Origin: Thermococcus profundus
Lineage (GTDB): Archaea > Methanobacteriota_B > Thermococci > Thermococcales > Thermococcaceae
NCBI RefSeq assembly: GCF_002214585.1
Contig: NZ_CP014862.1
Coordinates: forward strand, 1,798,001-1,862,000
DNA: 64,000 nt
Direction of reading: 5' to 3'
Shown one piece after another: positions 800 through 23,955 of this stretch; position 1 is the first letter of the stretch; every line of letters starts with the position of its first letter. The position numbers were made by a program, and so were the translations under genes. Below the pieces are notes generated by a model. It did not search any database and was not told the origin of the DNA. It saw nothing but the letters and a program-made list of their open reading frames with translations.

Positions 800-2005
800 A
801 TGCCGGTTGACCTTTCCGGACCCCTGCTGTCCGCATTCAAGAAGGCGAAGAGAGAATACGAAGAAGCCATGAAGAAAGGCGACATGGAGACCGCTAAGAA
901 GAAGGCCCTTGAGTGCTCCAGGATTCTGAAGCAGCTATCGAAATACGACGAGTTCAACCGCGAGAGCTACCTCAAAAAGGCCAAGAAGTGGGAGAGCCTG
1001 GCCAAAGACATTGAGAGTGGCAAGATAGCCCGCAAAACGCAACCAAAGCCTATGCGCGAGGGATCTTCGAGGCCAGACAGGGGGGAGAGCGAAGTAGAGA
1101 GCGAGGAGGAGAAGTTCAAGGCCTACGTCAGGAACAATCTCATAGCCAAGTCAAAGGTCAAGTGGGATGATATAGGCGGTCTGGATGAAGTCAAGAGGCT
1201 CATGATGGAGACAGTCGTAATAGCGGCCCTCCAGAGGCCGGAGTCGATCCAGCCATGGAAAGGCATCCTCCTCTTCGGGCCACCGGGGACGGGTAAAACT
1301 TTACTTGCTTCAGCCGCCGCCGGGAGCTTAAACGCCACCTTCTTCAGCGTCAAGGCCTCGAACGTTCTCAGCAAGTATTTCGGCGAGTCGGCGAAGATAA
1401 TAACCGCCCTCTATGAAGTAGCGAGGGAGGAGGCGCCGAGCATAGTCTTCCTCGACGAGATTGATTCGCTGACGACGAAGAGGAGCGGGGAGCAGAGCGA
1501 GGCGAGCAGGAGAATGCTGGCGACGCTTCTGACGGAGTTGGATGGCTTCCAGGACAAAAAGAGCGACAAGCTCATTCTAACGCTCGCGGCCACGAATACA
1601 CCCTGGGACTTGGACGAAGCAGTTCTCTCAAGGTTCCCACGCAGGATTTACGTGCCTTTACCAGATGAGAAAGCCACGAAGGAGATTATCAAGATCAACA
1701 CGCGCGGGCTGGACATATCAAGGCTTGATCTCGACGCAATAGCGGAGGAGAGCGTGAGGAGGCTTTATTCAGGTAGAGACCTGAGGAACCTCTGCCAGGA
1801 GGCAATCTGGAACATGATACGGGAGGAAAACAGGGATCTGCACAAGCTTGCTTCCCTGCCCTTCGAGGAACTGAGGAAGCGCTCTTTGAGGACGAGACCG
1901 CTTGAGATGAGGGATTTTGAGGAGGCGTTCAAGAAGATCAAGAGCCCGCTGACGAGGAAGGATATTGAGCGCTATGAGAAGTGGGCCGAGGAGTTCGGGG
2001 GATGA
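800..2005 (+). CDS. MIT-domain AAA ATPase, Vps4/CdvC-like (paralogue 1)
   Basis: 401-residue AAA ATPase. Residues 1-80 are a charged three-helix segment resembling a MIT domain, followed by a low-complexity linker and one AAA module (about 110-345). Walker A GPPGTGKT lies near residue 160, Walker B IVFLDEID near 215, and the second-region arginines SRFPRR near 278. The C-terminal helix ends KWAEEFGG, recalling the Vps4 C-terminal helix. Single-AAA plus MIT architecture is that of Vps4/CdvC, which disassembles ESCRT-III polymers. The start follows a GGAGGT ribosome site nine bases upstream. A close paralogue lies at 16902, next to an ESCRT-III-like gene, and shares long near-identical DNA tracts. 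ATPase identity is certain; a membrane-remodelling role is inferred from architecture and neighbours. Confidence 0.88.
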   Translation: MPVDLSGPLLSAFKKAKREYEEAMKKGDMETAKKKALECSRILKQLSKYDEFNRESYLKKAKKWESLAKDIESGKIARKTQPKPMREGSSRPDRGESEVESEEEKFKAYVRNNLIAKSKVKWDDIGGLDEVKRLMMETVVIAALQRPESIQPWKGILLFGPPGTGKTLLASAAAGSLNATFFSVKASNVLSKYFGESAKIITALYEVAREEAPSIVFLDEIDSLTTKRSGEQSEASRRMLATLLTELDGFQDKKSDKLILTLAATNTPWDLDEAVLSRFPRRIYVPLPDEKATKEIIKINTRGLDISRLDLDAIAEESVRRLYSGRDLRNLCQEAIWNMIREENRDLHKLASLPFEELRKRSLRTRPLEMRDFEEAFKKIKSPLTRKDIERYEKWAEEFGG

Positions 2006-6820: not shown

Positions 6821-6906
6821 AAACTCCACCGGGGTAAGATTTTGGAGAAGAACGTTAATAAGACCCTGGGAGAAAGAGGGGATGTTCCCCATCGGGGGTG
6901 TTTGAG

Positions 6907-8871
6907 TTGGGAAAAATCTCAGATTTAAAGCAGATCCAGACTTATCTCCCCAAAATTTCAACGTATCTTCCCCAAGGACTTCCTGGGTCCGATGCGGAGA
7001 GAGCCCGGTCCCTTCTGCAGGAGGCGTTGAGGGACATTGAGAGGGGGGACACCACAACCGCCCTGGAGAAAGTTAAAAACGCACTTCTTGCCGCGGTCCC
7101 AGAAACCGACTTCATTCTAAGCAACGCCCTCCGGCTGAGGCACGATGGAGAGAAGCTCCTTAAGGCGAAGAAGTTTAACGAGGCAATATCCAAGTTCGGG
7201 GAGGCACTTGAAAAGTACAGACAGGCCATATCAGTTCTGGAGATAATGCAGAGCGACGATGAGACCATGAAAAAGGTCAGAAACACAATAGACACCACAG
7301 AGAACCTCAAGAAAATAGCCAACTTCCGCAGAATATACCAGAAGATAAAAGATGCACAGACCGAAAAGGAACTGTGGGATGCAATAAGGGAGCTGGAGCA
7401 CGCTGAGGTTCCCATGGAAGACGACAGGTTCGATGCAATGGTAACAGCCCACAGGAAGATAATATACATGCAACTTCAGACGATAGCCGACATGATGACG
7501 AACGCCGCCGAGATGTACAAAAAGGAGGACTGGTTCTCAGCAAAGAAGACCCTGGAGAGCGCAAAGAGGGGACTTGAGAACCTCCTCACCACGGCGAAGA
7601 AATACGATCTGGTAGAAGAAGTGGGCATTATAAGTGAGCTCATAAAGGCGTGTGACAACAACATCTACGGAATAACCGAACTGCTGTACACAGGAGAGGT
7701 TCCAAAGGGCTGGAAGTTACAGATACCCGACAAGAGCAACCTCGTCCTCCAGGAGGAGAGCCTTGAGGAGGAAACCCTCGACCTCTCGGTTAACTTTGAG
7801 ACGAGGATGGAACAGATAAAGGAGAAGTACCGGATAGTCAAGATCATAGGGGAAGGGGCCTTCTCCTATGTTTACGAGGCCAAGAACCCACAGGGACACA
7901 GGATAGCCTTAAAAGTCCTAAAGTACCTGGACAAAGAGTCAACCTCTTCATTCATGCGCGAGTTCGCTGCATCCCAGAAGCTTGACCACGAAAACATAGT
8001 AAAGGTGTACCGCGCGGATCCCAGATTGGGGTTCCTTGAGATGGAGCTCGCAAGCGGCAACTTAGAGGAGGTCAAAAAGCCCATAGCCCCCGCGATCGCT
8101 GGGAAAATAATATTCGAAGTCGGGCGTGCACTGCACCACGCCCACGTCCAGAAGATCTACCACAGGGACATAAAACCGAGCAACATACTGATTTTTGGAA
8201 GCCTTGAAAAAGTAAAGCTCGGTGACTGGGGCCTTGCAAGACTGGCGGCAAAAGCGACCAGGAAGTCATCGCTGGTGAGACACAAAACGATACTGTACTC
8301 ATCCCCGGAGCAGATAAAGGATCCTGAACACCTGGACGAGCGCAGCGATATATTCCAGCTGGGCATCGTCTTCTACGAGATACTAACCGGGAAACACCCC
8401 TTCATGGCCGAATACGAAGGTACGATAATCAACAATATCCTCACAAAGAACCCGGATCCCCCATCAACCCTTAACCCCGAGGCGAAACCCTTCGATGATA
8501 TAGTCCTGAAAATGCTGGAGAAAGACCCCAGTAAGAGGTACCAGACAGTCAGAGAGCTCCAAAACGATATTAAAGACGTCCTGATTCAGATGGGAATACA
8601 CGTAAAGGACAGCGTCAGCTCGAGGGACAGGGTAAAGATCCTTGCAGAGAACGCCTACCTGCACCTGAAAAGCGTGGTGGATGGAATCGCAAGGAACATC
8701 TCATCAGAGCTCTCGTATCTGGCCAAAGACCTTGAGTCACTTTATCTGGAAACCGGACACACGGATCTCAGGGGGCTGGCAAAACAAATAGAGATGATGG
8801 CCGCCGAAAACGTAAAACCCACGGAGGACACGGCAAGAAAGATTGAGAGCATACTTAAGAAATGGATGTGA
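6907..8871 (+). CDS. Hanks-type Ser/Thr protein kinase with helical N-terminal domain
   Basis: Residues 1-290 are all-helical with TPR/MIT-like repeats and no membrane segment. About 310-575 is a eukaryotic-type kinase domain: glycine loop GEGAFSYVY, ATP lysine in IALKV, catalytic loop YHRDIKPSN, metal motif DWG in place of DFG, activation segment ending SSPEQ, and the FQLGIVFYE helix. A helical tail of about 80 residues follows. I chose the TTG at 6907 because GGGGGTG (6894-6900) sits six bases before it; an in-frame GTG at 6898 would leave no ribosome site. It lies between two PEGA membrane proteins, one carrying the opposing PP2C activity. It probably phosphorylates proteins of this locus; substrates are unknown. 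Confidence 0.85.
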   Translation: MGKISDLKQIQTYLPKISTYLPQGLPGSDAERARSLLQEALRDIERGDTTTALEKVKNALLAAVPETDFILSNALRLRHDGEKLLKAKKFNEAISKFGEALEKYRQAISVLEIMQSDDETMKKVRNTIDTTENLKKIANFRRIYQKIKDAQTEKELWDAIRELEHAEVPMEDDRFDAMVTAHRKIIYMQLQTIADMMTNAAEMYKKEDWFSAKKTLESAKRGLENLLTTAKKYDLVEEVGIISELIKACDNNIYGITELLYTGEVPKGWKLQIPDKSNLVLQEESLEEETLDLSVNFETRMEQIKEKYRIVKIIGEGAFSYVYEAKNPQGHRIALKVLKYLDKESTSSFMREFAASQKLDHENIVKVYRADPRLGFLEMELASGNLEEVKKPIAPAIAGKIIFEVGRALHHAHVQKIYHRDIKPSNILIFGSLEKVKLGDWGLARLAAKATRKSSLVRHKTILYSSPEQIKDPEHLDERSDIFQLGIVFYEILTGKHPFMAEYEGTIINNILTKNPDPPSTLNPEAKPFDDIVLKMLEKDPSKRYQTVRELQNDIKDVLIQMGIHVKDSVSSRDRVKILAENAYLHLKSVVDGIARNISSELSYLAKDLESLYLETGHTDLRGLAKQIEMMAAENVKPTEDTARKIESILKKWM

Positions 8872-8880
8872 GGGATCGAA

Positions 8881-11592
8881 ATGACAAGGCTTCGGTATGT
8901 TGGTGCAATCTTTGTCCTCTTCCTGTTGACGTTTAGTCTGGCAGGTGTGCTTGCAGATGAAGGCATCCCCCAGGACTCGCACGGAACAGGAACCAATGCA
9001 ACTCTAATCATAATTTCCGCTCCCCCAAACGCAACGGTTTACATCAACGGAACCCCCTACGGAAACACTCCGCTTAACATAACACTCCAACCCGGCATCT
9101 ACCAGATCAACGTCACAAAAGAAGGCTACCAGGCCAACGGAACGGTGGTATCACTGGGACAAAACGAGACCAGGGTATTGAATATAACCCTCACACCCAC
9201 ATGGGGGTACCTGACCATAAACTCCACACCGAGCAACGCTACCGTTTACATAGATGGAAAAGAGGCCGGAAGGACTCCCTTAATAAACTACACCCTCGTC
9301 CCTGGAAACCACAGCATCACACTGGTCAAACCCGGATACGAAGAATATAGAGAAAACGTGACTATAACACCCGGAGAGACGATTTCAATCGTTGCCAGCT
9401 TATCCCCCCAACCGGCGGAGCTCGGGGTAAACTCAAACCCAAGCGGGGCGGCTGTTTACATAAACGACGAATACAAAGGAGCCACCCCAATCAGCCTCAC
9501 GCTCAAACCGGGCAGCTACACTGTAAAACTATCGCTTGAAGGATATGCCAACATAACAAAAAACCTAACCCTCGGCCCAGGGGAAAACAAAACATTGAAC
9601 TTCAATCTAACCCCATTGCCCTCTCTGGGGTATCTCACCATAAATTCCACTCCGGCCAATGCAACGGTCTACCTGGACGGAGATTACATTGGAACAACAC
9701 CCCTCGAAAACTACCCCCTCCCCCCCGGAAACCACACCATCACAATAGTCAAGCGGGGATATGAAAACTACACAGAGACAATACAAGTTGAAGGGAATAC
9801 CCCGCTCTTCGTAAACGTGACCCTAAAGCCGCTCACAGCCACAGTTAAAGTTCTCTCGACCCCCATTGGAGCGGAGGTCTACCTAGACGGAGAATCCATC
9901 GGAAAAACCCCCGGCAACTTCACCATCCCTTCGGGTAGCCACACCATAACACTCCACCTGGACGGGTACTTGAACTACACCACCGCGGTAACTGTAAGTC
10001 CCGGAGAGACTAAGGTTGTCAACGCCACACTCATCCCGATTCCAGCGAAGCTCAGCATTAACTCAACTCCCTCCGGAGCTAGTGTTTACATTAATGGAAG
10101 TTACAAAGGGGAAACTCCGCTCACCCTCAACCTAACTCCAGGAGTTTACAACGTAACGATCAGCAAACAAGGCTATGACAATTATACAACCACAATAACC
10201 CTAAATCCTGGAGAAAACAGAAGGATAAAGGCCAAACTAACCCACCTCACCGGATACATAACGGTTTACACTACACCCGGCAACGCAACCGTTTACATAG
10301 ACGGCAAAGAAGTCGGAAAAACCCCGCTGATAAAGTACAACATCACCCCCGGAAAACACAGGCTGACGATCAAGCTCAATGGGTACAAAGAGTACGACAA
10401 AAACATAACGATAAATCCGGGGGAAAATCCTCCCCTCAACGTCACCCTAACAAAGGTCAGCGGCAAGGGAGGCATACTCGACACCCTGAAGGGCCTGCTC
10501 AAGATCATTGGGCTGATAATCATCGCAATAATAATCCTTATTTTCGTCATCCGCGCGGGCAGTACTGGATATGCAAAGCTCTCAGAAGCCAAGAAGAGAA
10601 GTGAAGCGGAGAACGCTGTAAAACTGATGAGAGAGATCCTCCGTGACCTGGAAATTGAGCTCGAACGTCTCAATTTGGCAGACGACGAGAGCGTGCAAGA
10701 TTCCCTCATCAGGATAAGAAACGCACTCAGGGACGCGGAGGCCGCCCTCAGAAGAAACGACTATAGGACACCCCTAACCCTCAAGAAGAGGTTCATAACC
10801 GAAGTAGAATCGCTCAACTCCAGGATAAAGCCGTACAAGAAGAGCATGGAAAAGGATCTGACAAAGCACGCAGTCGGGAGGACGTACCTCGGCCGCAGGG
10901 AGAACAACGAGGATGCCTACACCGTGGAGAAGATAGGCGGCAACATCCTTCTGGCAGTAGCCGACGGTATGGGCGGTCATCTGGCAGGTGAAGTCGCCAG
11001 TAAAACGGCCATAGACACCCTAAGAGAGATCCTGCAGAGGAAAAAGCTCGCCGATCCAGCGGAAGTGCTGAGGGATGCTATCATAGAGGCAAACAGAAAG
11101 ATCTATGAGATGGGACACGACCCGGCCCACCCGGAGAGGTACAACATGGGCACCACCCTAACGGCGGCGGTAGTGAGGGGAGACACCGCCACGGTCGCCA
11201 ACATAGGGGACAGCAGGACCTACCTCATAAAGCCGGGCGGGACAATACAGCGGCTCACAAAAGACCACTCCCTCGTCCAGGAGCTCGTGGACAAGGGTGA
11301 GATAACAGAGGAAGAGGCCAGGAGACACCCCCAGAAGAACGTCATAACCAAGGCCCTTGGAATAGAACCCGAGATAAAGATCGACGAGGGGGACATAAAG
11401 AAAGTGAACCTCCAGGAAGGGGACTACCTGCTCCTCTGCTCGGACGGTCTGACGGACGCCCTCAGAGACGAAGAGATAGCCAGCACCCTGCTTGCGGCGC
11501 CGTCGCTTGAAGAGGCCGCCAAAATGCTGATAGAGAAAGCATACGCCTACGGAAGCAACGACAACATAACGGTGGTCATATACAGACATTGA
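8881..11592 (+). CDS. Transmembrane PP2C-family protein phosphatase with seven external PEGA repeats
   Basis: Signal sequence (residues 1-25), seven PEGA repeats with many N-glycosylation sequons (about 39-525), one TM helix (about 534-560), a cytoplasmic helical segment (about 560-660), then a PP2C/PPM domain (about 663-903). PP2C metal and catalytic motifs are intact: RRENNEDAY, VADGMGGH, GTTLTAAVV, NIGDSRTYL, CSDGLTDAL and NDNITVVIY. It should remove phosphate from Ser/Thr in the cytoplasm while sensing the envelope outside. Upstream lies a kinase (9-base gap) and downstream a PEGA kinase whose first possible start overlaps this stop. The arrangement matches bacterial kinase/PP2C operons such as PknB/Stp, but the PEGA ectodomain is unusual. 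The ATG follows GAGGGAT. Confidence 0.9.
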   Translation: MTRLRYVGAIFVLFLLTFSLAGVLADEGIPQDSHGTGTNATLIIISAPPNATVYINGTPYGNTPLNITLQPGIYQINVTKEGYQANGTVVSLGQNETRVLNITLTPTWGYLTINSTPSNATVYIDGKEAGRTPLINYTLVPGNHSITLVKPGYEEYRENVTITPGETISIVASLSPQPAELGVNSNPSGAAVYINDEYKGATPISLTLKPGSYTVKLSLEGYANITKNLTLGPGENKTLNFNLTPLPSLGYLTINSTPANATVYLDGDYIGTTPLENYPLPPGNHTITIVKRGYENYTETIQVEGNTPLFVNVTLKPLTATVKVLSTPIGAEVYLDGESIGKTPGNFTIPSGSHTITLHLDGYLNYTTAVTVSPGETKVVNATLIPIPAKLSINSTPSGASVYINGSYKGETPLTLNLTPGVYNVTISKQGYDNYTTTITLNPGENRRIKAKLTHLTGYITVYTTPGNATVYIDGKEVGKTPLIKYNITPGKHRLTIKLNGYKEYDKNITINPGENPPLNVTLTKVSGKGGILDTLKGLLKIIGLIIIAIIILIFVIRAGSTGYAKLSEAKKRSEAENAVKLMREILRDLEIELERLNLADDESVQDSLIRIRNALRDAEAALRRNDYRTPLTLKKRFITEVESLNSRIKPYKKSMEKDLTKHAVGRTYLGRRENNEDAYTVEKIGGNILLAVADGMGGHLAGEVASKTAIDTLREILQRKKLADPAEVLRDAIIEANRKIYEMGHDPAHPERYNMGTTLTAAVVRGDTATVANIGDSRTYLIKPGGTIQRLTKDHSLVQELVDKGEITEEEARRHPQKNVITKALGIEPEIKIDEGDIKKVNLQEGDYLLLCSDGLTDALRDEEIASTLLAAPSLEEAAKMLIEKAYAYGSNDNITVVIYRH

Positions 11593-11603
11593 GGCGGTCC
11601 GGA

Positions 11604-14600
11604 ATGGCCCATCTCAAAACGAACACATCGATAGAAGCCAGCGACATTCCATTTCCCCACTATCTCTCGACCCCTCTCAGAGAGACGAATAAAAGGCTAG
11701 GATGCAGAGCGATGATTTTAGTAGCAACTTCTTTATTATTTTTACTAGTTCTTGTTTCTGCTCCAAAAGTAACAGCCCCTAACTCAGAATATATCCCCGG
11801 GAATTACCTTCTATGGGAGTACAACACGACAGAAAAAATATTCTCAACAGAGATAAGTAACGATGGAAGTTATATTGCAATTGGAACTTGGGCTGATAAA
11901 AACGGAGATAACCTACTACAATCAAATGATGGCGGCTCACTGTTTTTATTAAGTAAAAATGGTAGCCTTCTGTGGAAAAAAACATTCAACAGCCCAGTAA
12001 CCTCCACAGCAATGACTCCCAGCGGAGATTACATAGCAATAGCATGCTACGGAGCAGGAGTAATGTTATTCAACAAAGAAGGGGACCTAATATGGCAAGA
12101 TCACACATCACTGTTTCCACGGACGGTCAAAATATCCCCCGATGGACGCTATGTGGTAGCAGGGAGTACTGATAATCTATTATACGCTATCAATAAGAAT
12201 GGGGATTTAATATGGAAAACTAATATAGCAATGAAAACTAGAGCAATTGATCTATCATCTAATGGATACATTACGGTAGCTCACGGGAACTGGTTCTACA
12301 AAGGGGAAGAAGACTATAATTACCTCTATCTTTTCGACAAGGATGGGAACAAGATATGGACAAAGAGCTTCAATGATACAACCAACACAGTATCTATAAA
12401 TGAAGACGGAGAGTACATAGCAGTTGGCACTGGGACTCACTGGACTTCAGATGACAAGTGGACCGGGAGTGGAAATTACTATGTTTACTATTATTCCAAG
12501 AATGGAAGCTTGTTATGGAAGTATGAAATCAATGGGGAGATAACACATGTCTTAGTTTCCCCAACAGGGACTTATGTCATAGCAGGAGACGGGGTAGGAT
12601 ATACATACCTGTTTTCAAAAGACGGAAAGATTCAATGGTCCAGATACAGCGGCTGTTACATTGACTCGCTAAGTGCTACTGAAAACTTCTCCTTGATAAT
12701 TACTGGGGATTCCTGTGGGAATGTTAATGTTCTTAGCAGGAACGGAGAAGTACTAGCATCTTTCAACATCCAAGGGAGGGTTTATGGAAACTCCATTTCA
12801 CAGGAATACACAGCTGTCATAGGAAGCACTGAAGGAAGCGCATATTTGGTAGCACTCGACAAATTTATCAAGGCGACCCTTCAGATATCCTCCATCCCAT
12901 CCGAAGCAAAAGTCTACATCAATGGAACTTACAGAGGATTGACCCCATTAACCTTAACTCTCCAACCAGGGACATACCTACTCAAAATCTCCAAGGATGG
13001 GTACAGAGACTATTTCTCCACAATAACCCTTGGGCCAGGAGATAGTAAAAACCTATTGGTGAGGTTAACTCCAATGTTTGGGTACTTGACAGTTTATTCT
13101 ACTCCTTCTGCGGCCGATGTGTATATTGATGACTCACTGATTGGAACCACACCACTAAAAAACTATAAACTCTCTGCCGGGCAACACAAATTAAAAGTCA
13201 GTAAGGAGGGATACATCAACTACACAACAAACATAACAATAAGTCCCGGACAAAATAGGACTATCGATGTTAAATTAAAGCCCAAACAGGCAATACTCAT
13301 AATAAATTCAAAGCCTTCTGGGGCTAAAGTTTACATTAATGGGACTTACAAAGGATTAACGGCCTTAAATGTGACACTTGACCCTGGAACTTATCAAGTT
13401 AAACTTTCCAAAGAGGAGTACAAAGACTACACTACCATCATAATCCTAGGCCCTGGAGAGAATAAAACGCTCTCAGTAAATTTAACACCAGCTTTCGGAT
13501 ACTTGGCAGTTTACTCCACGCCCGCAGGTGCCAATGTGTACATTGATGGTTCACTCATCGGAACAACCCCTCTGGAAAGTTACAAGCTCTCGACTGGACA
13601 GCATGAGTTAAAACTAACTAAAGAAGGATATGACGATTACACAACAACCTTGACAATAGATCCTGGGAAAACAACAGCAATAAACATTGAATTAGTTCCA
13701 AAGGCATCAATGCTATCAATTAACTCTGATCCAGGTGAGACCAAAGTTTACATTAATGGCACATACAAAGGGATAACACCATTAACTCTAACTCTCGCGC
13801 CTGGAACTTACGAACTCAAGCTCACAAAGGAAGATTACGAAGATTACACAACCACAATAACCCTAGAACCCGGGGAGAACAAGACAATAAAAATCCAGCT
13901 AACACCAAAACCCGCGAGAATTTCAATAACCTCTAATCCATCCGGAGCTAAGGTTTACGTTAACGGGAATTACAGAGGAACAACACCATTAAATTTCACC
14001 CTCAACCCTGCAACTTATCAGATTAAACTCTCAGAGCAAGATTATGAAGATTACACGACAACAATAACTCTCGGCCCAGGAGAGAGTAAAACCCTCTCAG
14101 TGACCCTGATCCCAGCCTTCGGCTACCTTACCATCACTTCAACTCCTTCAAACGCTGAAGTTTACGTCGATGGTTTTTACATGGGAAAAACTCCTCTGGA
14201 GAACTACAAACTGTCAACAGGAAAACACAAGCTCAAAATCAAGAAAAACAACTATCAGGAGTACGTAACCACAATAACAATAAAACCAAACAAAACAACC
14301 ACCGTGAAAGTCACCCTAACTCCAAAACCAGTAACCATTTCAATAAACTCCGATCCTTCTGGAGCGAAAGTTTACGTCAACAGTTCTTACAGGGGGACAA
14401 CACCGTTAAACCTCACGCTCAATCCTGGAACGTACCAAATAAAACTCTCAAAGGAGGATTATGAAGAGTACACCACAATAATAACACTCAACCCAGGAGA
14501 AAACAAGACACTCTCCCCAGCACTGTCCCCGACTTTTGGTTACTTATCAATAACTTCCCCGGAGGGAGCCAAAGTTTACATGGATGGTTCCCTCATTGGC

Positions 14601-16328
14601 ACGACTCCGATCATGAATTACAAGCTCTCGAAGGGCAAGCACGAGTTAAGGCTCGTCAAGGAGGGCTACGAGGATTATTCCGCGAACATTACAATAACGG
14701 CTGGAAGAACTCTCTCGCTTACTCCACAATTGAAGCCTATAATCACGACAACCAGCACGCCAAGCAGTACAACGGCCACTACAACATCTTCTCTGCCCAT
14801 TACGACAACTACTGGCACAACAACGACCCCGACTACGACAACGTCAAACTCCCAGTTATCATCCACCTCTCCCACATCAACAACTCCCATGAATTCATCT
14901 CCAACAGGCTCCTCAAAACTCCCCTACGCCCTCGGAGCCCTCATCCTCCTAGCAATCTTCGGAGGAGTAGCGGCAAAAGCCCACAAAGGGCAGAAGAACT
15001 CACCGACTGAAACAGGATACAAACCACCCGAAGAGAAACCCAGACTAAAGCCCCCAGAAACTCCGAAACCTACCAAAAAAGAGGAAACACACCTTCCAAA
15101 ACCAACTCCACAACAGACTCCTGCTTCAGCTCCTTCGAAAGAAACCCCCCCAGGATTCCCACCAGAGTTACTTGAGAAGTATGAACCATTGGAATTTCTC
15201 GGCGAGGGTGGTTTCGCCAAGGTCTTCAAGGTTAAACGCAAGTCCGATGGCAAAATCGTCGCTGTGAAAATCCCGCGCATTGATAAGAAGACCAGCAAGA
15301 CCTTCATAAGAGAGGTCTCAATCTGGCTCCAGCTTAATCACCCCAACATCGTGAAGCTCTATGACGTCGATATTCTCCCGATTCCCCATCTTGAGATGGA
15401 GTACGTGGAGGGAGTTAAAATAGATGAAGAGACTGTGAGGGATCTTGAAGGCTATCCAAAGCCCGTTAATGAAAAGACTGCCTTAAATCTCATTAAATGC
15501 ATTGCCGAAGGACTGAAGCACGCCCACTCAAAGGGCATTTACCACCGTGATCTTAAACCCCTCAACGTCCTCTTGAAGAGCGATTTAACCCCAAAAATAA
15601 CTGATTGGGGTCTCGCAAAGATAGGAACCATGAGTTCAAGCAGGAGTGTTATGGGTTACACTCCCCTCTACGCGGCTCCCGAACACTTATTGCCCGGAAA
15701 GTATGGGCACACTGACGCGAGAACCGACATTTGGCAGCTGGGAGTAATCTTCTACGAGCTGCTAACCGGCAGGCTTCCCTTCGAGGGCTACACCTATGAA
15801 GAGGTCTTCGGAAAGATAGTTGACGAGACCTATAAGTTTACCCCACCCTCAGAACTTAACCCTGAACTAGCAAAGTACGACGGAATCTTTGAGAAGCTCC
15901 TCGCAAAGAGGAAGGAAAACCGCTATGGAAGCGTTGAAGAGTTCTTAAGAGATCTTGAAAAGCTGAAAGAGTCAGAGAAAAGGAAAGCAGAACTGGAAAA
16001 AGAGGTTGAGGAGCTTAAAAAGTCCTTATCCAGGAGCGTTGAGGCGTTAAAGCAAAGCAAAAGCGCCGAAGAGGCCATCAAGAACAGAAGGATGGTCGTA
16101 GAGACTCTTGGCAAGCTAGCCTTAGCCTACACCGAACTCAACAGGAAGACCGAGCTCCTCAACACGCTCAACGACCTCAAGTTCTACACGGTGCAGAATC
16201 TAAGCGATCTCCTTAACGCTATAAACACAGTTGAAGTCCTCTTAAAGGAAAACCTGCCTGTAAAGGAGGAGTTCATCGAAAGGTTAAAGGTTCTGATCCA
16301 CAACATAGAGAGGGAAAACGGGGTGTGA
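11604..16328 (+). CDS. Beta-propeller/PEGA transmembrane Ser/Thr kinase (paralogue A)
   Basis: About 1574 residues. A hydrophobic export segment (around residues 37-58) is followed by WD/PQQ-like propeller blades (repeated DGxxLWKxx and YIAIG strands, to about 425). Then come nine PEGA repeats (about 425-1045), a Ser/Thr-rich stalk, one TM helix (LPYALGALILL) and a cytoplasmic kinase domain (about 1195-1450). The kinase shows GEGGFAKVF, VAVKI, YHRDLKP, DWG instead of DFG, and AAPEH. A coiled coil and helical tail finish the protein. The ATG at 11604 has GAGGCGGT upstream; a TTG at 11589 overlapping the previous stop is the alternative. The propeller-PEGA half looks more A+T-rich than the kinase half. 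It is probably an envelope sensor kinase; ligand and targets are unknown. Confidence 0.87.
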   Translation: MAHLKTNTSIEASDIPFPHYLSTPLRETNKRLGCRAMILVATSLLFLLVLVSAPKVTAPNSEYIPGNYLLWEYNTTEKIFSTEISNDGSYIAIGTWADKNGDNLLQSNDGGSLFLLSKNGSLLWKKTFNSPVTSTAMTPSGDYIAIACYGAGVMLFNKEGDLIWQDHTSLFPRTVKISPDGRYVVAGSTDNLLYAINKNGDLIWKTNIAMKTRAIDLSSNGYITVAHGNWFYKGEEDYNYLYLFDKDGNKIWTKSFNDTTNTVSINEDGEYIAVGTGTHWTSDDKWTGSGNYYVYYYSKNGSLLWKYEINGEITHVLVSPTGTYVIAGDGVGYTYLFSKDGKIQWSRYSGCYIDSLSATENFSLIITGDSCGNVNVLSRNGEVLASFNIQGRVYGNSISQEYTAVIGSTEGSAYLVALDKFIKATLQISSIPSEAKVYINGTYRGLTPLTLTLQPGTYLLKISKDGYRDYFSTITLGPGDSKNLLVRLTPMFGYLTVYSTPSAADVYIDDSLIGTTPLKNYKLSAGQHKLKVSKEGYINYTTNITISPGQNRTIDVKLKPKQAILIINSKPSGAKVYINGTYKGLTALNVTLDPGTYQVKLSKEEYKDYTTIIILGPGENKTLSVNLTPAFGYLAVYSTPAGANVYIDGSLIGTTPLESYKLSTGQHELKLTKEGYDDYTTTLTIDPGKTTAINIELVPKASMLSINSDPGETKVYINGTYKGITPLTLTLAPGTYELKLTKEDYEDYTTTITLEPGENKTIKIQLTPKPARISITSNPSGAKVYVNGNYRGTTPLNFTLNPATYQIKLSEQDYEDYTTTITLGPGESKTLSVTLIPAFGYLTITSTPSNAEVYVDGFYMGKTPLENYKLSTGKHKLKIKKNNYQEYVTTITIKPNKTTTVKVTLTPKPVTISINSDPSGAKVYVNSSYRGTTPLNLTLNPGTYQIKLSKEDYEEYTTIITLNPGENKTLSPALSPTFGYLSITSPEGAKVYMDGSLIGTTPIMNYKLSKGKHELRLVKEGYEDYSANITITAGRTLSLTPQLKPIITTTSTPSSTTATTTSSLPITTTTGTTTTPTTTTSNSQLSSTSPTSTTPMNSSPTGSSKLPYALGALILLAIFGGVAAKAHKGQKNSPTETGYKPPEEKPRLKPPETPKPTKKEETHLPKPTPQQTPASAPSKETPPGFPPELLEKYEPLEFLGEGGFAKVFKVKRKSDGKIVAVKIPRIDKKTSKTFIREVSIWLQLNHPNIVKLYDVDILPIPHLEMEYVEGVKIDEETVRDLEGYPKPVNEKTALNLIKCIAEGLKHAHSKGIYHRDLKPLNVLLKSDLTPKITDWGLAKIGTMSSSRSVMGYTPLYAAPEHLLPGKYGHTDARTDIWQLGVIFYELLTGRLPFEGYTYEEVFGKIVDETYKFTPPSELNPELAKYDGIFEKLLAKRKENRYGSVEEFLRDLEKLKESEKRKAELEKEVEELKKSLSRSVEALKQSKSAEEAIKNRRMVVETLGKLALAYTELNRKTELLNTLNDLKFYTVQNLSDLLNAINTVEVLLKENLPVKEEFIERLKVLIHNIERENGV

Positions 16329-16332
16329 TTAT

Positions 16333-16899
16333 ATGGTCAAGTTCTGGAAATCCAAAGAGGATAAGGAGATAGAGCGGAAAATACGAATGAGAAAGGCCAA
16401 GATGGCCCTGAAGCAGTACATAAACAACCTCGAGAACCTAAAGAGGAAGATATTCTTCCAGGGGAAGGAGGCTGCGAAGCTCGGGGACGAAGCATTATTG
16501 AAGAGAAGCGCCGTGAAATACCTCGCCCTTGAGGAGAGGATAAAGCAGGCCAAAAGGCTGCTCCTTCTGATGGAGGAAGCCGAAGTCCAGAGGGAGCTCG
16601 TGAAGGTCTCGGCGAACTTTATACAGTTCAGCCAGGACATCGTCGAAAGCATAGCTGAAGGGCCGGGGGCGCAGGACATTGCCAAGATGCAGGTGGAGTT
16701 CGAAAAGGCTATGGGAAGGGTGGAAGAGCTCGACGACGCCCTCGCTTCGATGCTCGATCTGACAAGCGAGAGCATCTTAACCGGGGACTTCGACGCCGAG
16801 ACGATAGAGGAAGCGGCCTCGATTTTCGAGGAGTCGGCATCATCAGACTTGGCCCCGAAGGACAGGCTCAAGGCGATTGAAGACGCCATGAGGGGCTGA
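16333..16899 (+). CDS. ESCRT-III (Snf7)-like coiled-coil protein
   Basis: 188 residues, almost entirely helical. The N-terminal two thirds is strongly basic and forms a long helical hairpin (KIRMRKAKMALKQYI ... AVKYLALEERIKQAKRL). The C-terminal third is acidic (EELDDALASMLDL ... TIEEAASIFEESA). This basic-core/acidic-tail layout and length match the Snf7/CdvB family. The last residues, KDRLKAIEDAMRG, resemble a MIM1 motif (LxxRLxxL near the C-terminus), the element that docks on MIT domains of Vps4. It sits 5 bases after the kinase stop and 2 bases before a MIT-AAA ATPase gene, so it is surely co-expressed with its likely disassembly ATPase. No catalytic motif. A generic coiled-coil protein of the PspA/Vipp1 type is the main alternative. 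Confidence 0.68.
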   Translation: MVKFWKSKEDKEIERKIRMRKAKMALKQYINNLENLKRKIFFQGKEAAKLGDEALLKRSAVKYLALEERIKQAKRLLLLMEEAEVQRELVKVSANFIQFSQDIVESIAEGPGAQDIAKMQVEFEKAMGRVEELDDALASMLDLTSESILTGDFDAETIEEAASIFEESASSDLAPKDRLKAIEDAMRG

Positions 16900-16901
16900 G
16901 C

Positions 16902-18059
16902 ATGAAGACTGCGGAGCTCTACATGAGTCTCTTTGAAGAATGCAGGGGAGAGTACGAGAAGGCCGTAAGGGCGGGGAGGAGGAACGAGGCTCATGCCCTC
17001 GCCCTTCGCTGCGCCTCGATACTCCTCAATCTGGCCGGGAAGAACCCGAGGATGGCGGAGCTCTACATGGCGAGGGCAGAAGAATGGGAGAGGAAAGCGG
17101 AGGAGCTAGAAAAGAAGCCAGAGGTTGAAAAGAGGGAAACACTGCCAGCAGGAAAAGGAAGCACTCCCACATCGACCAACCCATATCTGGAGTACGTCGA
17201 GGGGCTGATAGCGCGCTCAACGGTGACCTGGAAGGATATAGGTGGGCTTGAGGAGGTAAAGAAGCTGATAGCGAGGAATGTGGCGCTGGCCTTAGCTGAA
17301 AAACCGGCGCCCATAAAGCCGTGGAAGGGCATCCTCCTCTTCGGGCCGCCGGGAACGGGCAAGACTTTACTCGCCTCTGCCGCCGCCGGGAGCTTAAACG
17401 CCACCTTCTTCAGCGTCAAGGCCTCGGACGTTCTTAGCAAGTACTACGGCGAGAGCTCCAAGATAGTCTCGGCATTATACGCGCTGGCGAGGGAGAAAGC
17501 TCCAAGCATCGTTTTCATAGACGAGATAGACGCCCTGACCGTTAAGAGGGAAGGTGCACACGAGGCCACGCGGAGGACTCTGGCGACCCTGTTGAGTGAG
17601 CTTGATGGCTTCAAGGGACAGGGGGACGTTCCAGTCCTGACGCTGGCCTCCACCAACACCCCCTGGGATTTGGACGAGGCCGTTCTCTCAAGATTCCCGC
17701 TCCGGGTTTACGTTCCACTTCCCGATAAAGAGGCCACTAAGGAAATTATCAAGACAAACACTCGTGGGCTTGACATCTCAAGGCTTGACTTGGACGCGAT
17801 AGCGGAGGAGAGCGTAAGGAGGCTCTACTCCGGAAGGGAAATAGCGAGCCTGTGCAATTTAGCCATTCACAACATGCTCGACGAGATGAACCCCGAGCTT
17901 TCCGACCTCGATGCGATCTCAAAGAGCGAGAGGCTGAAGCTGAAGGTGAGGCCGCTTGAGATGGGGGACTTTGAGGAGGCGTTCAAGAAGATCAAGAGCC
18001 CGCTCACGAGGAAGGACATTGAGCGCTATGAGAAATGGGCAGAGGAGTTTGGGGCATGA
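16902..18059 (+). CDS. MIT-domain AAA ATPase, Vps4/CdvC-like (paralogue 2)
   Basis: 385 residues, same plan as the gene at 800: helical MIT-like N-terminus (1-75, starting KTAELYMSLFEECRGEY), linker, AAA module with Walker A GPPGTGKT (about 147), Walker B IVFIDEID (about 203) and second-region arginine SRFPLR, then a C-terminal helix ending KWAEEFGA. It starts two bases after the stop of the ESCRT-III-like gene, the typical setting for a polymer subunit and its ATPase. Several blocks are nearly identical at DNA level to paralogue 1, including about 47 identical bases after Walker A (17379 on, versus 1313 on), which points to recent duplication or gene conversion. The linker regions are unrelated, so the two enzymes may bind different partners. 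Confidence 0.88.
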   Translation: MKTAELYMSLFEECRGEYEKAVRAGRRNEAHALALRCASILLNLAGKNPRMAELYMARAEEWERKAEELEKKPEVEKRETLPAGKGSTPTSTNPYLEYVEGLIARSTVTWKDIGGLEEVKKLIARNVALALAEKPAPIKPWKGILLFGPPGTGKTLLASAAAGSLNATFFSVKASDVLSKYYGESSKIVSALYALAREKAPSIVFIDEIDALTVKREGAHEATRRTLATLLSELDGFKGQGDVPVLTLASTNTPWDLDEAVLSRFPLRVYVPLPDKEATKEIIKTNTRGLDISRLDLDAIAEESVRRLYSGREIASLCNLAIHNMLDEMNPELSDLDAISKSERLKLKVRPLEMGDFEEAFKKIKSPLTRKDIERYEKWAEEFGA

Positions 18060-18271: not shown

Positions 18272-21200
18272 GTGGGTGGGAGAACCCAAAACATGCTTCT
18301 AATTACGGTGTTTATGATAGGTATGATGCTGGTCTCTATGGTATCACCTCCCGTTAACGGATATACGGTTTCAAAAACTGTTAATGTACCCGACCCCGTT
18401 AAGCCGATACTGCACGGATCAGAGGGTGGAAATCTGTTCGCTCTGGCATCCAACCAGAGCGTAATAGTCTACACTTTCAGTGGAGAGGTTCTATGGGAGC
18501 TAAGCGAAACTTCCACGATTACCGCAATCTCCATCTCTCCCGATGGTACTCTGCTCGCGGTTGGGACTAAGAGCAAAGTCAAGGTATACAACTTGACCTC
18601 AAAGAGCCTTTCTAGAATACTCTACACTCCTTCCCAGTACGTCAGGGGCATATCCATCACCAACGACTTTATTGCCGTTGGAAGTGGCGATTATCTGGTA
18701 GTGTACACGTTGGGAGGAGACGTTTTATGGTCACGAAACGGTTTTGGATACATCTACACAGTGGTCTCCACAAACGATAAAATTGTGGTCGGGTCGCAGT
18801 ACTCCCCTCATGGCAACCTGTACTGCTACTCGATAAACGGCAGCCTAATCTGGAGGAAAACCCTCAGCAAAGGAAACGTTGAACTCCTTGCGATATCATC
18901 TTCTGAGAAAATTGGGGCTTTTGTTGACTATAAAAACTCCTCTGGAGAGTTGGTGGGAGAAGCGTACCTGCTTGACTCCAATGGAAACGTCATAACCGGC
19001 GTCAAATGGCCAGAACCCATCTACTACGGACACATTCAGTTCATAAACTCCAGCGAACTTGCAGTGCCAGACTACAACGGCTTCATTGGGGTTCTGTCAC
19101 CCACGGGCATCAATACCCTCTACGTTCCGTCAACATTCGGAGTGTTTTACAATGGCAGCTCTCTAGTGTCGGTGGCATCTGAGATATATTTCCTGAACCT
19201 TCGGGATGAAACCCCTAACAAGGAAAGCCCCTCTAACTGGACGCTCCGCTTAAACATCACTCCAAGATCCGTATTGGTGACCGGACGTGGAGAGGTGATG
19301 GTAGGTACCGACTATCCACAATCCTGGGTCTACATCCTGAAGGACGGGGCCGTTACTAAGCGTGTCCCCACGGTTTCGACGGTCTACGCCCTTGCCCCCG
19401 CCAAGGACGGCGTGTATGTGAGTGATGACGATCTCGTTAAGCTAGATTTCTCCGGGAATCGTCTGTGGACTGTACAGGTGCCTTCAACTATAACTGACTT
19501 GGACAGCAAAGGAGATAACGTGGCTGTGGTAACTTCAAGAGGCCAGATATCGCTGGTAACCCCCACAGGGAGCATTTTGTGGAGTGTCTACCTACCAGAG
19601 AGCAACGTATACCCGGTCGTCGCATTAAGCAATGATTCGATCGTATACACAGCGTTTACCGATCACTACGGGAGTTGGATGTGGGCTGTAGAAAATGGAG
19701 AAGTCCTCTGGAAAGTCCGCCTTCCCGACGGTAGTATGGTGCGCTCTATAGCCTCTACCAGGGAGGGAGACTACATTGCTGTAGGGCTCGAGGATGGAAT
19801 GGTTTACTTACTCTCATCCAATGGGAGCATTGTAAACCAGAAGAGGATTGGAAACAATGTTATGGACGTGGTTCTGATACAGCGCGGTATGAGAACATAC
19901 CTCCTCATCAGAAACGAGGAGGGCCTGGAAATCCGTACTGTCCCCGATTTCACAGAACTCCACTCTATCCCTCTGGGAGAGCCCCCATCAAAACCGGGCA
20001 CGTCATTATCCGCCTCTTCGGATGGGGCGTACATAGCCACCATTGACATGGACGGAACGGTAAGATACATGGAAATCAATGGGGTATTCCGTCAAGGTAT
20101 ACTTTTAATTAATTCAAACCCAACGGGGGCAAGCGTGTACATAGATGGGGAATACAAAGGAAAAACTCCGCTGAACGTGACTTTAATTCCCGGTGACTAC
20201 ATTCTGAAGGTAACATTGGAAAACTACGCGACAGTTACCAGACAGATAACGCTCCTCCCAGGCCAAAATCTGACGATAACAATAAGCCTAACTCCAAAAT
20301 TTGGTTACCTCAATGTGTACTCAACACCAAACGAGGCCGAAGTCTACGTGGACGGACATATTGTTGGAACAACCCCACTAGCAGGATATATCATCTCTAC
20401 TGGGGAGCACACGATAAAACTGAGCAAGGAAGGATACGAGGATTACACTGAGACAGTCTTTATCACTCCAGGAGAAACGAAGGAAGTGCACGCAATCCTC
20501 ACAGAAAAGAAAGGAACCCTTCAGATATCCTCGACTCCAGAGGGTGCAAGCATTTACATAGACGGAAACTACATGGGCAAAACTCCCCAGACCCTTCAAG
20601 TCCTCCCCGGAACCCACACCGTAACGATCGCGATGCAGGATTACCAGAATTACACGACAACAATCACAGTGAGAGCAGGAGAATCAGAGAGGATCACCGC
20701 CATCCTCCAGCCGGTTTTTGGCTATCTCAGCGTTACAACCGAACCCTCGGGTGCAAAGGTTTACATCGACGGTTCCTACGCTGGAGAGACCCCATTGAAC
20801 GAGTATAAACTCCACACTGGTTCCCACACAGTCAGCATAATAAAAGAAGGATACCAGAATTACACAGAGACCGTAATCATAACCTCAGGAAAGACCACAA
20901 TGCTTAACTTGAACCTAACTAAGGCCAGCCCTACCTCCAGTTCAGAGATAGCTGAGCAAACAACCACCACGACTCTACCAACCAGGACAACCTCAAACCC
21001 TCCAACCACATCACCAACGACTACAACGACGTATAATCATGCTCAGTCTTCGATTCCTACCTCTTCATCCCCTACAACATCACAATCCCTAACTCCACCA
21101 TCGAACTCCGCTCCCCCGACAAGTTCATCAAAACTTCCCTACGCTCTCGGAGCGCTCATCCTCCTCATGCTCGTTGGTGGAGTTGCGACAAAAGTCCGTG

Positions 21201-22435
21201 GAGGAAAACACTCTCCTGCATCTACGCCTGCCTCTTCCTCCATTAACCCTCACCTCGCGGGTTTTCCATCAGAGCTTCTCTCCCGTTATGAACCGTTGGA
21301 ATTCCTCGGCAAGGGCGGCTTCGCCAAAGTATTCAAGGTTAAACGCAAGTCCGACGGAAAAATTGTCGCCGTGAAAATCCCGCGCATAGACGAGAAGACG
21401 AGCAAGACCTTCCTCAGAGAGGTATCCACGTGGTTACAGCTCGATCATCCTAACATTGTAAAGCTATACGATGCTGACATCCTCCCAGTCCCGCATCTTG
21501 AAATGGAGTACGTTGAAGGCTTCAAACTGAACGGAAAGACTATCAGAGACCTGGAAAATTACCCGAAGCCCGCCGATGAAAGCACTGCACTGAGACTCGT
21601 CAGGGAAATTGCAGAAGGATTAAAACACGCCCACTCAAAGGGAATCTACCACCGCGACCTAAAGCCTCAAAACGTCCTCCTCAAGAGCGACCTAACCCCT
21701 AAAATAACCGACTGGGGCCTGGCAAAAATTGGAACAATGAGTTCAAGCAGGAGCGTAATGGGTTACACTCCCCTCTACGCTGCTCCAGAGCATCTAATGC
21801 CAAGCAGGTACGGGCACACAGACTCTAGAACTGATATCTTCCAGCTCGGCATCATGTTCTATGAGCTCCTAACCGGAAGGCTTCCCTTCGAGGGCTATAC
21901 TTACGAGGAAGTCTTCGGAAAGATAACGGATGAGAACTACCGTCCAAAGAAGCCATCGGAGATCAATCCAGAGTTGGTAAAGTACAATGGGATTTTCGAG
22001 AAGCTCTTGGCCAAGAAAAAGGAAGACCGCTATCAGAGCGTTGATGAATTCCTGAGAGACCTTGAAAAACTTGAAGAGGCTGAGAAGAGGAAAGAAGAGC
22101 TAGAAACCGAAGTCCAGGAGCTCAAAAAGACCCTCAGCCAAAGCATTTCAGCCATGAAGAAGAGCACGACAGCGGAGGAAATTCGGAGGAATAGACTCAT
22201 GGTCGTCGATACTCTCGGGAAGCTGGCCCTCGCGTACGCGCAACTCAACAACAAAGCCGAACTCCTCAACACCCTCAACGACCTCAAGTTCTACACATCC
22301 CAAAACATTGAAGACCTCGGAAGGGCCATAGAAACCGTCGAGACACTCATCAAGGAGAATCTATCCATAGGCGAGGACTTCATAGAGAGGCTGAGGGTTC
22401 TGATCCACAACATCAAACGGGAAAACGGTGCTTAG
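18272..22435 (+). CDS. Beta-propeller/PEGA transmembrane Ser/Thr kinase (paralogue B)
   Basis: 1387 residues. Short signal sequence (LLITVFMIGMMLVSMV), a long WD/PQQ-like propeller (about 30-605), four PEGA repeats (about 609-890), a Ser/Thr/Pro stalk, one TM helix (LPYALGALILLMLVGG, about 955) and a cytoplasmic kinase (about 1005-1260) with GKGGFAKVF, VAVKI, YHRDLKP, DWG and AAPEH, then a coiled-coil helical tail. The kinase and tail are nearly identical to paralogue A, whereas the propeller is different and the PEGA array is shorter; the pair may read different external signals into one output. The GTG start has GGGAGGGT eight bases upstream; an in-frame ATG at 18293 is the alternative. It closes the signalling locus; the next gene has its own promoter. 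Confidence 0.87.
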   Translation: MGGRTQNMLLITVFMIGMMLVSMVSPPVNGYTVSKTVNVPDPVKPILHGSEGGNLFALASNQSVIVYTFSGEVLWELSETSTITAISISPDGTLLAVGTKSKVKVYNLTSKSLSRILYTPSQYVRGISITNDFIAVGSGDYLVVYTLGGDVLWSRNGFGYIYTVVSTNDKIVVGSQYSPHGNLYCYSINGSLIWRKTLSKGNVELLAISSSEKIGAFVDYKNSSGELVGEAYLLDSNGNVITGVKWPEPIYYGHIQFINSSELAVPDYNGFIGVLSPTGINTLYVPSTFGVFYNGSSLVSVASEIYFLNLRDETPNKESPSNWTLRLNITPRSVLVTGRGEVMVGTDYPQSWVYILKDGAVTKRVPTVSTVYALAPAKDGVYVSDDDLVKLDFSGNRLWTVQVPSTITDLDSKGDNVAVVTSRGQISLVTPTGSILWSVYLPESNVYPVVALSNDSIVYTAFTDHYGSWMWAVENGEVLWKVRLPDGSMVRSIASTREGDYIAVGLEDGMVYLLSSNGSIVNQKRIGNNVMDVVLIQRGMRTYLLIRNEEGLEIRTVPDFTELHSIPLGEPPSKPGTSLSASSDGAYIATIDMDGTVRYMEINGVFRQGILLINSNPTGASVYIDGEYKGKTPLNVTLIPGDYILKVTLENYATVTRQITLLPGQNLTITISLTPKFGYLNVYSTPNEAEVYVDGHIVGTTPLAGYIISTGEHTIKLSKEGYEDYTETVFITPGETKEVHAILTEKKGTLQISSTPEGASIYIDGNYMGKTPQTLQVLPGTHTVTIAMQDYQNYTTTITVRAGESERITAILQPVFGYLSVTTEPSGAKVYIDGSYAGETPLNEYKLHTGSHTVSIIKEGYQNYTETVIITSGKTTMLNLNLTKASPTSSSEIAEQTTTTTLPTRTTSNPPTTSPTTTTTYNHAQSSIPTSSSPTTSQSLTPPSNSAPPTSSSKLPYALGALILLMLVGGVATKVRGGKHSPASTPASSSINPHLAGFPSELLSRYEPLEFLGKGGFAKVFKVKRKSDGKIVAVKIPRIDEKTSKTFLREVSTWLQLDHPNIVKLYDADILPVPHLEMEYVEGFKLNGKTIRDLENYPKPADESTALRLVREIAEGLKHAHSKGIYHRDLKPQNVLLKSDLTPKITDWGLAKIGTMSSSRSVMGYTPLYAAPEHLMPSRYGHTDSRTDIFQLGIMFYELLTGRLPFEGYTYEEVFGKITDENYRPKKPSEINPELVKYNGIFEKLLAKKKEDRYQSVDEFLRDLEKLEEAEKRKEELETEVQELKKTLSQSISAMKKSTTAEEIRRNRLMVVDTLGKLALAYAQLNNKAELLNTLNDLKFYTSQNIEDLGRAIETVETLIKENLSIGEDFIERLRVLIHNIKRENGA

Positions 22436-22521: not shown

Positions 22522-22567
22522 AGAAGAAAAACCAAAGCGAGTTTGACAATTCCCGGTGGTGATAGTA

Positions 22568-23524
22568 ATGGGCTTCGCGGCCGTGGCTCTCGTCGTGCTG
22601 GGGCTTTTTCTCCTGCTACTCCTGCTCCTGGGAGTGAAGGTGATAAGGCCCTACCAGCGCGGACTCGTTGAGAGGTTGGGAAAGTTCAACAGGATCCTCG
22701 ATCCAGGAATACACTTCATAATCCCCTTCATGGAGCGCGTTAAGAAGGTGGACATGCGCGAGCACGTCATCGACGTGCCGCCACAGGAGGTCATCTGTAA
22801 GGACAACGTCGTCGTCACCGTTGATGCGGTCGTCTACTACCAGATACTCGACCCAGTTAAGGTGGTCTACAACGTCAGCAACTTCCTCATGGCGATAATC
22901 AAGCTCGCCCAGACGAACCTCCGTGCCATAATCGGCGAGATGGAGCTAGACGAGACCCTCTCCGGGAGGGACATAATCAACGCCCGCCTGAGGGAGGAGC
23001 TCGACAAGATAACCGACCGCTGGGGAGTCAAGATAACCCGCGTCGAGATCCAGAGGATAGACCCACCGAAGGACATCCAGGAGGCAATGGCCAAGCAGAT
23101 GACGGCCGAGAGGGAGAAGAGGGCTATGATACTCCTCGCGGAGGGCAAAAAGGAGGCGGCCGTGAGGGAGGCCGAGGGACAGAAGCAGGCGGCTATTTTA
23201 AAGGCCGAGGGTGAAAAGCAGAGGCAGATACTCATCGCCGAGGGCCAAGCGCAGGCCATTAGGAAGGTACTCGAAGCCCTCAGGATGGCGGACGAGAAGT
23301 ACCTCACACTCCAGTACATTGAGAAGCTTCCTGACCTCGCCAAGTACGGCAACCTCATAGTCCCGTACGACACCGAGTCGCTGATAGGCCTCCTGAGAAT
23401 CCTTCAGAAGGTCCGGGAAAAGCCCGTCCCCCCCGCCCCTCCAAGTGAGGCGGAGGAGCCAGAGGGGACCTCGGGAAACGTAAACCCCGAGGATCTTGAA
23501 AAACTCAAAAAGATGATGGAGTGA
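22568..23524 (+). CDS. Slipin/stomatin-like SPFH protein
   Basis: 318 residues: one N-terminal hydrophobic helix ([17 protein letters not shown]), then an SPFH domain ([38 protein letters not shown]) and a long Ala/Glu/Gln-rich coiled coil ([19 protein letters not shown]). Stomatin-type proteins oligomerise on the inner face of the membrane and organise microdomains. The GTG codons at 22556/22559 are part of the GGTGGTGAT ribosome site, so I start at the ATG at 22568, four bases after it. It overlaps or abuts the NfeD gene, the classic stomatin-NfeD pairing. The short partner resembles the Pyrococcus horikoshii PH0470/PH0471-type pair rather than the protease-bearing one. Confidence 0.92.
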
Positions 23525-23529
23525 GGGAG

Positions 23530-23955
23530 ATGGAAACCCTCGCCCTTTCCCTCTTAATTTTGGGACTCCTCATAATACTCCTGGATATGATGGTCACAGC
23601 GTTCATAACACCTATAGGCGTGGCTTTTGCAACGCTGGGTCTGCTCCTCGGTTTTGGGCTCAACTTCACCGAGAGTTTTGTGCTTTCGCTCATCGCCGCG
23701 GTCGTGGCTTACATACTCATCGGGAGGTACATCAGGAAGGACGTCGAAGACCTAGGGGAGAAGGAGAAGAAGTACACCTTCGATCCAGTGGGGAAGATGG
23801 GAAGGGTAGTCAAGGCGGGCGAGGATCACTACCTAGTGGAGCTCGAAGGTGACAGGTGGATAGCCATAAGCGACGAGAAGCTGGAAGTTGGGGACACAGT
23901 TGAGGTCGTTAATGTTGACGGTGTTAAGCTCATCGTGAGAAAGGTCCAACGGTAA
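23530..23955 (+). CDS. Short NfeD-family membrane protein
   Basis: 141 residues: three or so hydrophobic helices in the first 80 residues, then a C-terminal beta-barrel (OB-fold) of the NfeD type ([20 protein letters not shown] ... [14 protein letters not shown]). The ClpP-like serine protease domain of long NfeD proteins is absent. It forms a two-gene unit with the slipin; the short NfeD OB domain is thought to bind the slipin coiled coil. The ATG at 23530 is chosen over a GTG at 23521 that overlaps the previous stop, because GGAGTGAGGG then serves as ribosome site. Confidence 0.87.

Follow-up and report, generated by a model that had tools for sequence, protein, structure and literature searches.

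An ESCRT-III-like protein with a MIM1-like C-terminus beside a Vps4-like ATPase in an archaeon with FtsZ

Described archaeal ESCRT systems and the present locus

The closest described counterparts of the locus considered here are the archaeal ESCRT systems assigned by Makarova et al. 2024 (PMC10936438) to a 'Main' clade, in which the Thermococcales are included. In this clade Vps4 and ESCRT-III are accompanied by arCOG08177, by a coiled-coil protein with a winged helix (arCOG09748), and by phosphatases and membrane kinases, the latter bearing a helical domain at the C-terminus. The same work also records that Thermococcales have solo Vps4 genes. An earlier review, from 2021, credited Thermococcales with Vps4 and no ESCRT-III (PMC10117752), and a domain survey of 2022, in which the proline-rich MIM2 is given as typical of CdvB, reported that no interaction-enabling domains were identifiable in euryarchaeal Cdv proteins (PMC8970359).

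The protein of interest, referred to here as ESC, is encoded within a window of 64,000 nucleotides from Thermococcus profundus (the whole stretch of DNA that was analysed) by an ORF with an ATG start at window positions 16333-16899 (+). A preliminary description of this DNA held that Thermococcales are not known for a Cdv-type module, a claim overtaken by their placement in the 'Main' ESCRT clade in 2024 (PMC10936438). Indeed, the locus fits the description of that clade, and the system is therefore not new in kind. Shared features are Vps4, ESCRT-III, a membrane Ser/Thr kinase with a C-terminal helical domain and a PP2C phosphatase. Additionally, the protein P0001, a coiled coil whose C-terminal end reads like a winged helix, fits arCOG09748, and U175 may be arCOG08177, both being matched by description only; DUF3568 (PF12092), used as a proxy for arCOG08177, gave no match anywhere, the control included, and so carries no information. 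Departures from the 'Main' clade are the presence of two Vps4 genes, one of which (AAA-2) is dedicated to ESC, an expanded set of beta-propeller/PEGA kinases, SPFH/NfeD neighbours, and the extra coiled-coil paralogues P0002 and P0003.

A pentapeptide-repeat ion-channel gene, which starts before the window, has its 3' part at 34..753 (+; Pfam Ion_trans_2, 2.4e-16); a longer ORF of it is present in L067, and similar ORFs in L075 and L077. AAA-1 (800..2005, +; 401 aa) is the other Vps4-like AAA ATPase at this locus, and its N-terminus can be aligned with the AAA-2 MIT domain. Upstream of ESC are a Ser/Thr protein kinase without PEGA repeats (6898..8871, +; Pkinase, 4.5e-44), a membrane protein that combines PEGA repeats with a PP2C phosphatase domain (8881..11592, +; Pfam PEGA, PP2C 3.5e-22) and a beta-propeller/PEGA membrane Ser/Thr kinase (11589..16328, +; Pkinase 3.4e-49, PEGA, PQQ), the stop codon of which is separated from ESC by 4 bases. 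AAA-2 begins 2 bases after ESC, and beyond it lie a second beta-propeller/PEGA membrane Ser/Thr kinase (18272..22435, +; Pkinase, 9.6e-48), an SPFH/stomatin-like protein, whose gene often comes next in related loci as well (22556..23524, +; Band_7, 7.8e-48) and NfeD, the usual SPFH partner (23521..23955, +; 3.1e-12). The PEGA-domain membrane proteins of the window (2069-6820, 8881-11592, 11589-16328 and 18272-22435), some of them with beta-propellers, PP2C or kinase domains, are very repetitive, and their length differs strongly between related genomes, reaching 3037 aa in L075, as in a rapidly changing sensor set.

Across related genomes the neighbourhood of ESC includes Ser/Thr kinases and, usually, PP2C phosphatases too. 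The locus occurs in a compact form, kinase-AAA-PP2C-ESC (L038-L045, L047 and L053), and in an enlarged form, that of the window included, to which the beta-propeller and PEGA membrane kinases are added, followed by SPFH and NfeD. In the genome to which the window belongs, U175, P0001, P0002 and P0003 are encoded some 3-7 kb before the window begins (G000:C1:1791196-1794838), P0002 and P0003 being coiled-coil paralogues of ~205 aa (L067, 9607-10838; G000:C1:1793607-1794838). P0003 starts MSLFSKFFGKK, and a weak Snf7 match was seen in 10 of its 13 members (best 0.0016).

The distribution of these partners was examined also. P0001 is present in all 30 genomes that carry ESC, and about a quarter of the P0001 genomes are without ESC. 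Since P0001 and P0003 are present and ESC absent in several genomes, among them G018 and G042 (where the stretch reads as continuous), ESC is not universal in the system. In genome G020, a 641-aa ORF (L072, 5397-7322) joins P0001-like and P0003-like parts, and neither kinases nor a locus-type Vps4 were seen near it; this ORF is probably either what is left of an ESCRT locus after deletion or a naturally occurring fusion. Judged from sequence, P0002 and P0003 may themselves be further ESCRT-III subunits. When the profile of ESC was compared with those of P0003 and P0002, a common ancestry was not supported (probability 4.9 and 8.3, respectively, with very shallow profiles).

Family membership and predicted fold of ESC

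ESC was found in 30 of 94 Thermococcales genomes, as 32 copies, and is regarded as conserved as a protein because 31 of the copies share 76-95% identity over the full length. The remaining copy (L048 in genome G089, 8372-8935) is frameshifted near its end, with the tail motif readable in another frame; the frameshift may be either an assembly error or recent decay. A phylum-level search returned no ESC homologues outside Thermococcales. In a wider search of 396 genomes a single convincing homologue was obtained outside the order, in G253, a member of another archaeal phylum, and three other matches were at chance level. In G253 the genes for U175, P0001 and ESC are adjacent and in that order (L081, C166, 11362-13891), the ESC protein being 58% identical but only 123 aa long, with both helix 3 and the tail missing. 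At the G253 locus ESC is followed by a beta-propeller gene.

The 188-residue protein has a net charge of +11 over residues 1-100 and of -16 over residues 101-188, and is helical in its AlphaFold2 model, which bears out the basic core and acidic tail ascribed to it earlier. The preliminary description had also called the protein ESCRT-III-like and had named structure prediction and profile searches against Snf7 and PspA as checks. The Pfam Snf7 family matched 25 of 25 ESC homologues scanned, with E-values of 1.1e-5 for the best member and 9.8e-5 for the next, both across residues ~15-155; the copy in the window gave 0.059, which alone is below the cut-off. None of six reversed ESC sequences, included as a control, matched Snf7. 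The best single member reaches 25.6 bits and none passes the curated Snf7 cut-off of 27.3 bits, so ESC can escape profile-based annotation; a family search of the whole T. profundus genome found nothing. Neither PspA_IM30 nor BAR families appeared in the hmmscan lists, up to an E-value of 1, for any of the 25 members, and a PspA/Vipp1 identity for ESC was dropped since there was no Pfam match to PspA_IM30. Sequence-only searches of the PDB with ESC, the ESC profile or the MIT profile returned no ESCRT protein.

The AlphaFold2 model of ESC, which rests on an alignment of five sequences (mean pLDDT 78, pTM 0.65), has the ESCRT-III topology of a helix 1-helix 2 hairpin, further helices and an acidic tail, together with a confident C-terminal helix. 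Helices 1 and 2 (residues 8-50 and 53-107; 16354..16653, +) form the predicted hairpin core, with pLDDT values of 76-94 per 10-residue block, and are followed by an acidic helix 3 (residues 113-150; 16669..16782, +; charge -6), a disordered linker (residues 154-171, pLDDT under 50) and a terminal helix at residues 175-187. When the model was searched by Foldseek against 350,542 PDB chains, the first two places were taken by Sulfolobus islandicus CdvB in the semi-open state (9s9k and 9s9j; probability 0.99, E 0.07, TM about 0.40). With an E-value of 0.07 the resemblance of the predicted fold to CdvB is not significant and is best described as suggestive. Closed CdvB and CdvB2 filaments were also among the matches, and BAR-like folds, which come next, score comparably to CdvB, amphiphysin (3sog) reaching a TMq of 0.53.

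That BAR domains align with similar or higher TM would accord with ESC being a generic helical membrane coat or scaffold, BAR-like or PspA/Vipp1-like rather than true ESCRT-III, with the AAA partner merely extracting it, particularly as helical proteins readily match one another and the alignment behind the model is only five sequences deep. However, Snf7 is named for every ESC member and PspA_IM30 or BAR never, the reversed-sequence control is clean, a MIM-like motif stands at the C-terminus, and the neighbouring gene encodes an ATPase of the MIT-Vps4 type, all of which make a generic coat distinctly unlikely. Sequence and structure, neither of which is proof alone, together indicate that ESC likely belongs to ESCRT-III, as first proposed, on the strength of the Snf7 matches, the predicted hairpin topology and CdvB as the best structural match.

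The C-terminal helix and the Vps4-like ATPases

The tails of Vps2/CHMP-type ESCRT-III proteins carry MIM1, an amphipathic helix with the consensus (D/E)xxLxxRLxxL(K/R). The ESC ORF ends ...SDLAPKDRLKAIEDAMRG, its C-terminus reading KDRLKAIEDAMRG, and the tail of most members conforms to (D/E)LxPxxRLKxIExxM(K/R). Measured against the MIM1 pattern, the D/E at -6, the R, the L at +1 and the I at +4 are kept, whereas P occupies the L position and E the final basic (K/R) position. The earlier comparison of this tail with MIM1 thus holds with deviations at two consensus positions, the predicted helix (residues 175-187, PKDRLKAIEDAMR; 16855..16893, +) having a pLDDT of about 88. In an alignment of 25 homologues, 24 have the motif [RK][LI][KR]xI[EV]xxM[RK], the exception being the frameshifted copy of G089; the linker ahead of the motif is more variable and is shorter in one subgroup. 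Among the 146 ORFs of at least 100 aa in the window, only one has the MIM1-like core pattern near its C-terminus. Like eukaryotic and Asgard ESCRT-III proteins of the Vps2 type, ESC is short and has a predicted C-terminal amphipathic helix that resembles MIM1; the remaining sequence is very distant from theirs.

The product of the gene 2 bases downstream, AAA-2 (16902..18059, +; 385 aa), is a Vps4-like ATPase in which Pfam recognises AAA (residues 144-273, 2.6e-37) and Vps4_C (residues 346-384, 2.7e-8), both over the cut-off, and which matches the NCBIfam CdvC model at 9e-53, below the cut-off of that family. Its MIT domain (residues 2-70; 16905..17111, +) is barely visible by sequence, with a Pfam value of 0.015 in one member only and no PDB profile match. 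It emerges from structure prediction as three helices (pLDDT 93-97 over residues 11-70), for which the top nine PDB matches in Foldseek are all Vps4 MIT domains, and it superposes on the archaeal Vps4 MIT structures 2w2u and 2v6y with a TMt of 0.83 and an rmsd of 1.5-1.6 Å. The MIT-AAA architecture assigned to this gene in the preliminary description is accordingly upheld, in AAA and Vps4_C by Pfam and in MIT by prediction. In the AAA tree, AAA-1 and AAA-2 fall in separate clades with support of 100/100, the outgroup being solo Vps4 on a very long branch, so that the tree speaks to this separation and not to the monophyly of AAA-2. The T. profundus genome has such a third, solo Vps4 (G000:C1:510517-511374), and it shares AAA, Vps4_C and a MIT-like N-terminus with AAA-2 but, as for the solo genes described for the order (PMC10936438), is located away from ESC. 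Conversely, the AAA-2 paralogue is found nowhere but immediately after ESC (12 of 12 loci), for which reason the two are taken to be a dedicated pair.

The locus shares with the Cdv system of TACK archaea a Snf7-type protein and a MIT-AAA-Vps4_C ATPase, with structural matches to CdvB (9s9k, 9s9j) and to archaeal Vps4 MIT (2w2u, 2v6y). In contrast to CdvB, the 188-aa ESC is modelled without a winged-helix domain and lacks the proline-rich MIM2, having the helical MIM1-like tail instead; further differences are the FtsZ of the host and the kinases and phosphatase of the locus.

The C-terminal helix could alternatively be autoinhibitory or structural rather than Vps4-binding, Vps4 being recruited via P0002/P0003 or a kinase tail. 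The departures of the motif from MIM1 would agree with this, as would G018 and G042, whose systems have the Vps4-like AAA-1 and no ESC, from which it follows that something other than ESC can recruit AAA-1. However, a motif kept in 24 of 25 homologues behind a variable linker, predicted as a separate helix and accompanied in 12 loci by an ATPase of its own directly behind ESC, speaks against a helix that does not bind, and this alternative is considered unlikely. Read as a MIM1-like element, the tail is a candidate counter-example, at the level of sequence, to the 2022 statement on euryarchaeal Cdv proteins. Supplementary tables of PMC10936438 aside, the tail and the dedicated AAA-2 paralogue appear undescribed in the literature found.

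Proposed mechanism and biological role

Family membership, the predicted fold, the MIT domain, the tail motif, gene order, and co-occurrence with kinases, PP2C and coiled-coil partners were all computed. ESC probably represents the ESCRT-III subunit of an archaeal ESCRT system of the 'Main' kind that is linked to kinases and a phosphatase, and the following mechanism is proposed for it. ESC would polymerise on the cytoplasmic face of the membrane via its basic helical hairpin, and its flexible acidic linker would present the MIM1-like C-terminal helix, which would in turn be bound by the MIT domain of AAA-2. The AAA-2 hexamer, with ATP, would then pull out ESC subunits, so that the polymer is remodelled or disassembled. 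The beta-propeller/PEGA membrane kinases, with domains that presumably face outward, and PP2C would switch the module on and off; the kinase and phosphatase partners suggest that the ESCRT system is under signalling control. The output would most likely be membrane remodelling or the sorting of proteins, triggered by stress or by cargo, and not the routine division of the cell.

The host was expected from the outset to possess FtsZ, and its genome does contain three tubulin-family genes, one of which is inside the window. This is a tubulin/FtsZ-family gene at 42267-42749 (-), with an E-value of 9.2e-56. Given the presence of tubulin-family genes (FtsZ) and the patchy occurrence of the module, in 30 of 94 genomes, division is unlikely to be its main role. 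An auxiliary function in division, in abscission alongside FtsZ, would draw on the homology to CdvB/CdvC and on the FtsZ-family gene in the same window; yet the module is patchy within the order and its genes sit with sensor kinases and PP2C as opposed to division genes, and such a function is judged highly improbable.

Vesicle budding, the role proposed in the preliminary description, would draw on the many extracellular vesicles that Thermococcus produces and on the release of vesicles by ESCRT in Sulfolobus (PMC10117752). That the module serves this process is nevertheless doubtful, with ESC confined to 30 of 94 Thermococcales genomes and ESCRT judged unlikely to be the sole cause of archaeal vesicles (PMC10936438). 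Disruption of any of three Vps4 homologues of T. kodakarensis left vesicle production unaffected (unpublished, cited in PMC10117752), which also speaks against a vesicle role, but single disruptions are not decisive where there are two or three paralogues. The module is read most economically as serving regulated membrane remodelling or protein sorting, in agreement with PMC10936438.

The original observation is thus sound and the identification largely right, with published work preceding the claim of novelty. The interest that remains lies in the tail-MIT pair and in kinase control. A conserved MIM1-like tail, with a MIT domain predicted in the product of the adjacent gene, speaks against the absence of ESCRT-III (PMC10117752) as well as that of interaction domains (PMC8970359), and the ESC tail and the AAA-2 MIT domain constitute a specific, testable candidate protein pair. 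More tentatively, and as a possibility rather than an expectation, ESC and AAA-2 could make up a second, dedicated level within an archaeal ESCRT machine, in which a MIM1-type ESCRT-III protein with its own Vps4 paralogue is phospho-switched by sensor kinases and PP2C, alongside AAA-1 and the coiled coils P0002/P0003, in an organism whose division relies on FtsZ. If true, signal-gated ESCRT action in a prokaryote would become testable in the genetically tractable Thermococcus.
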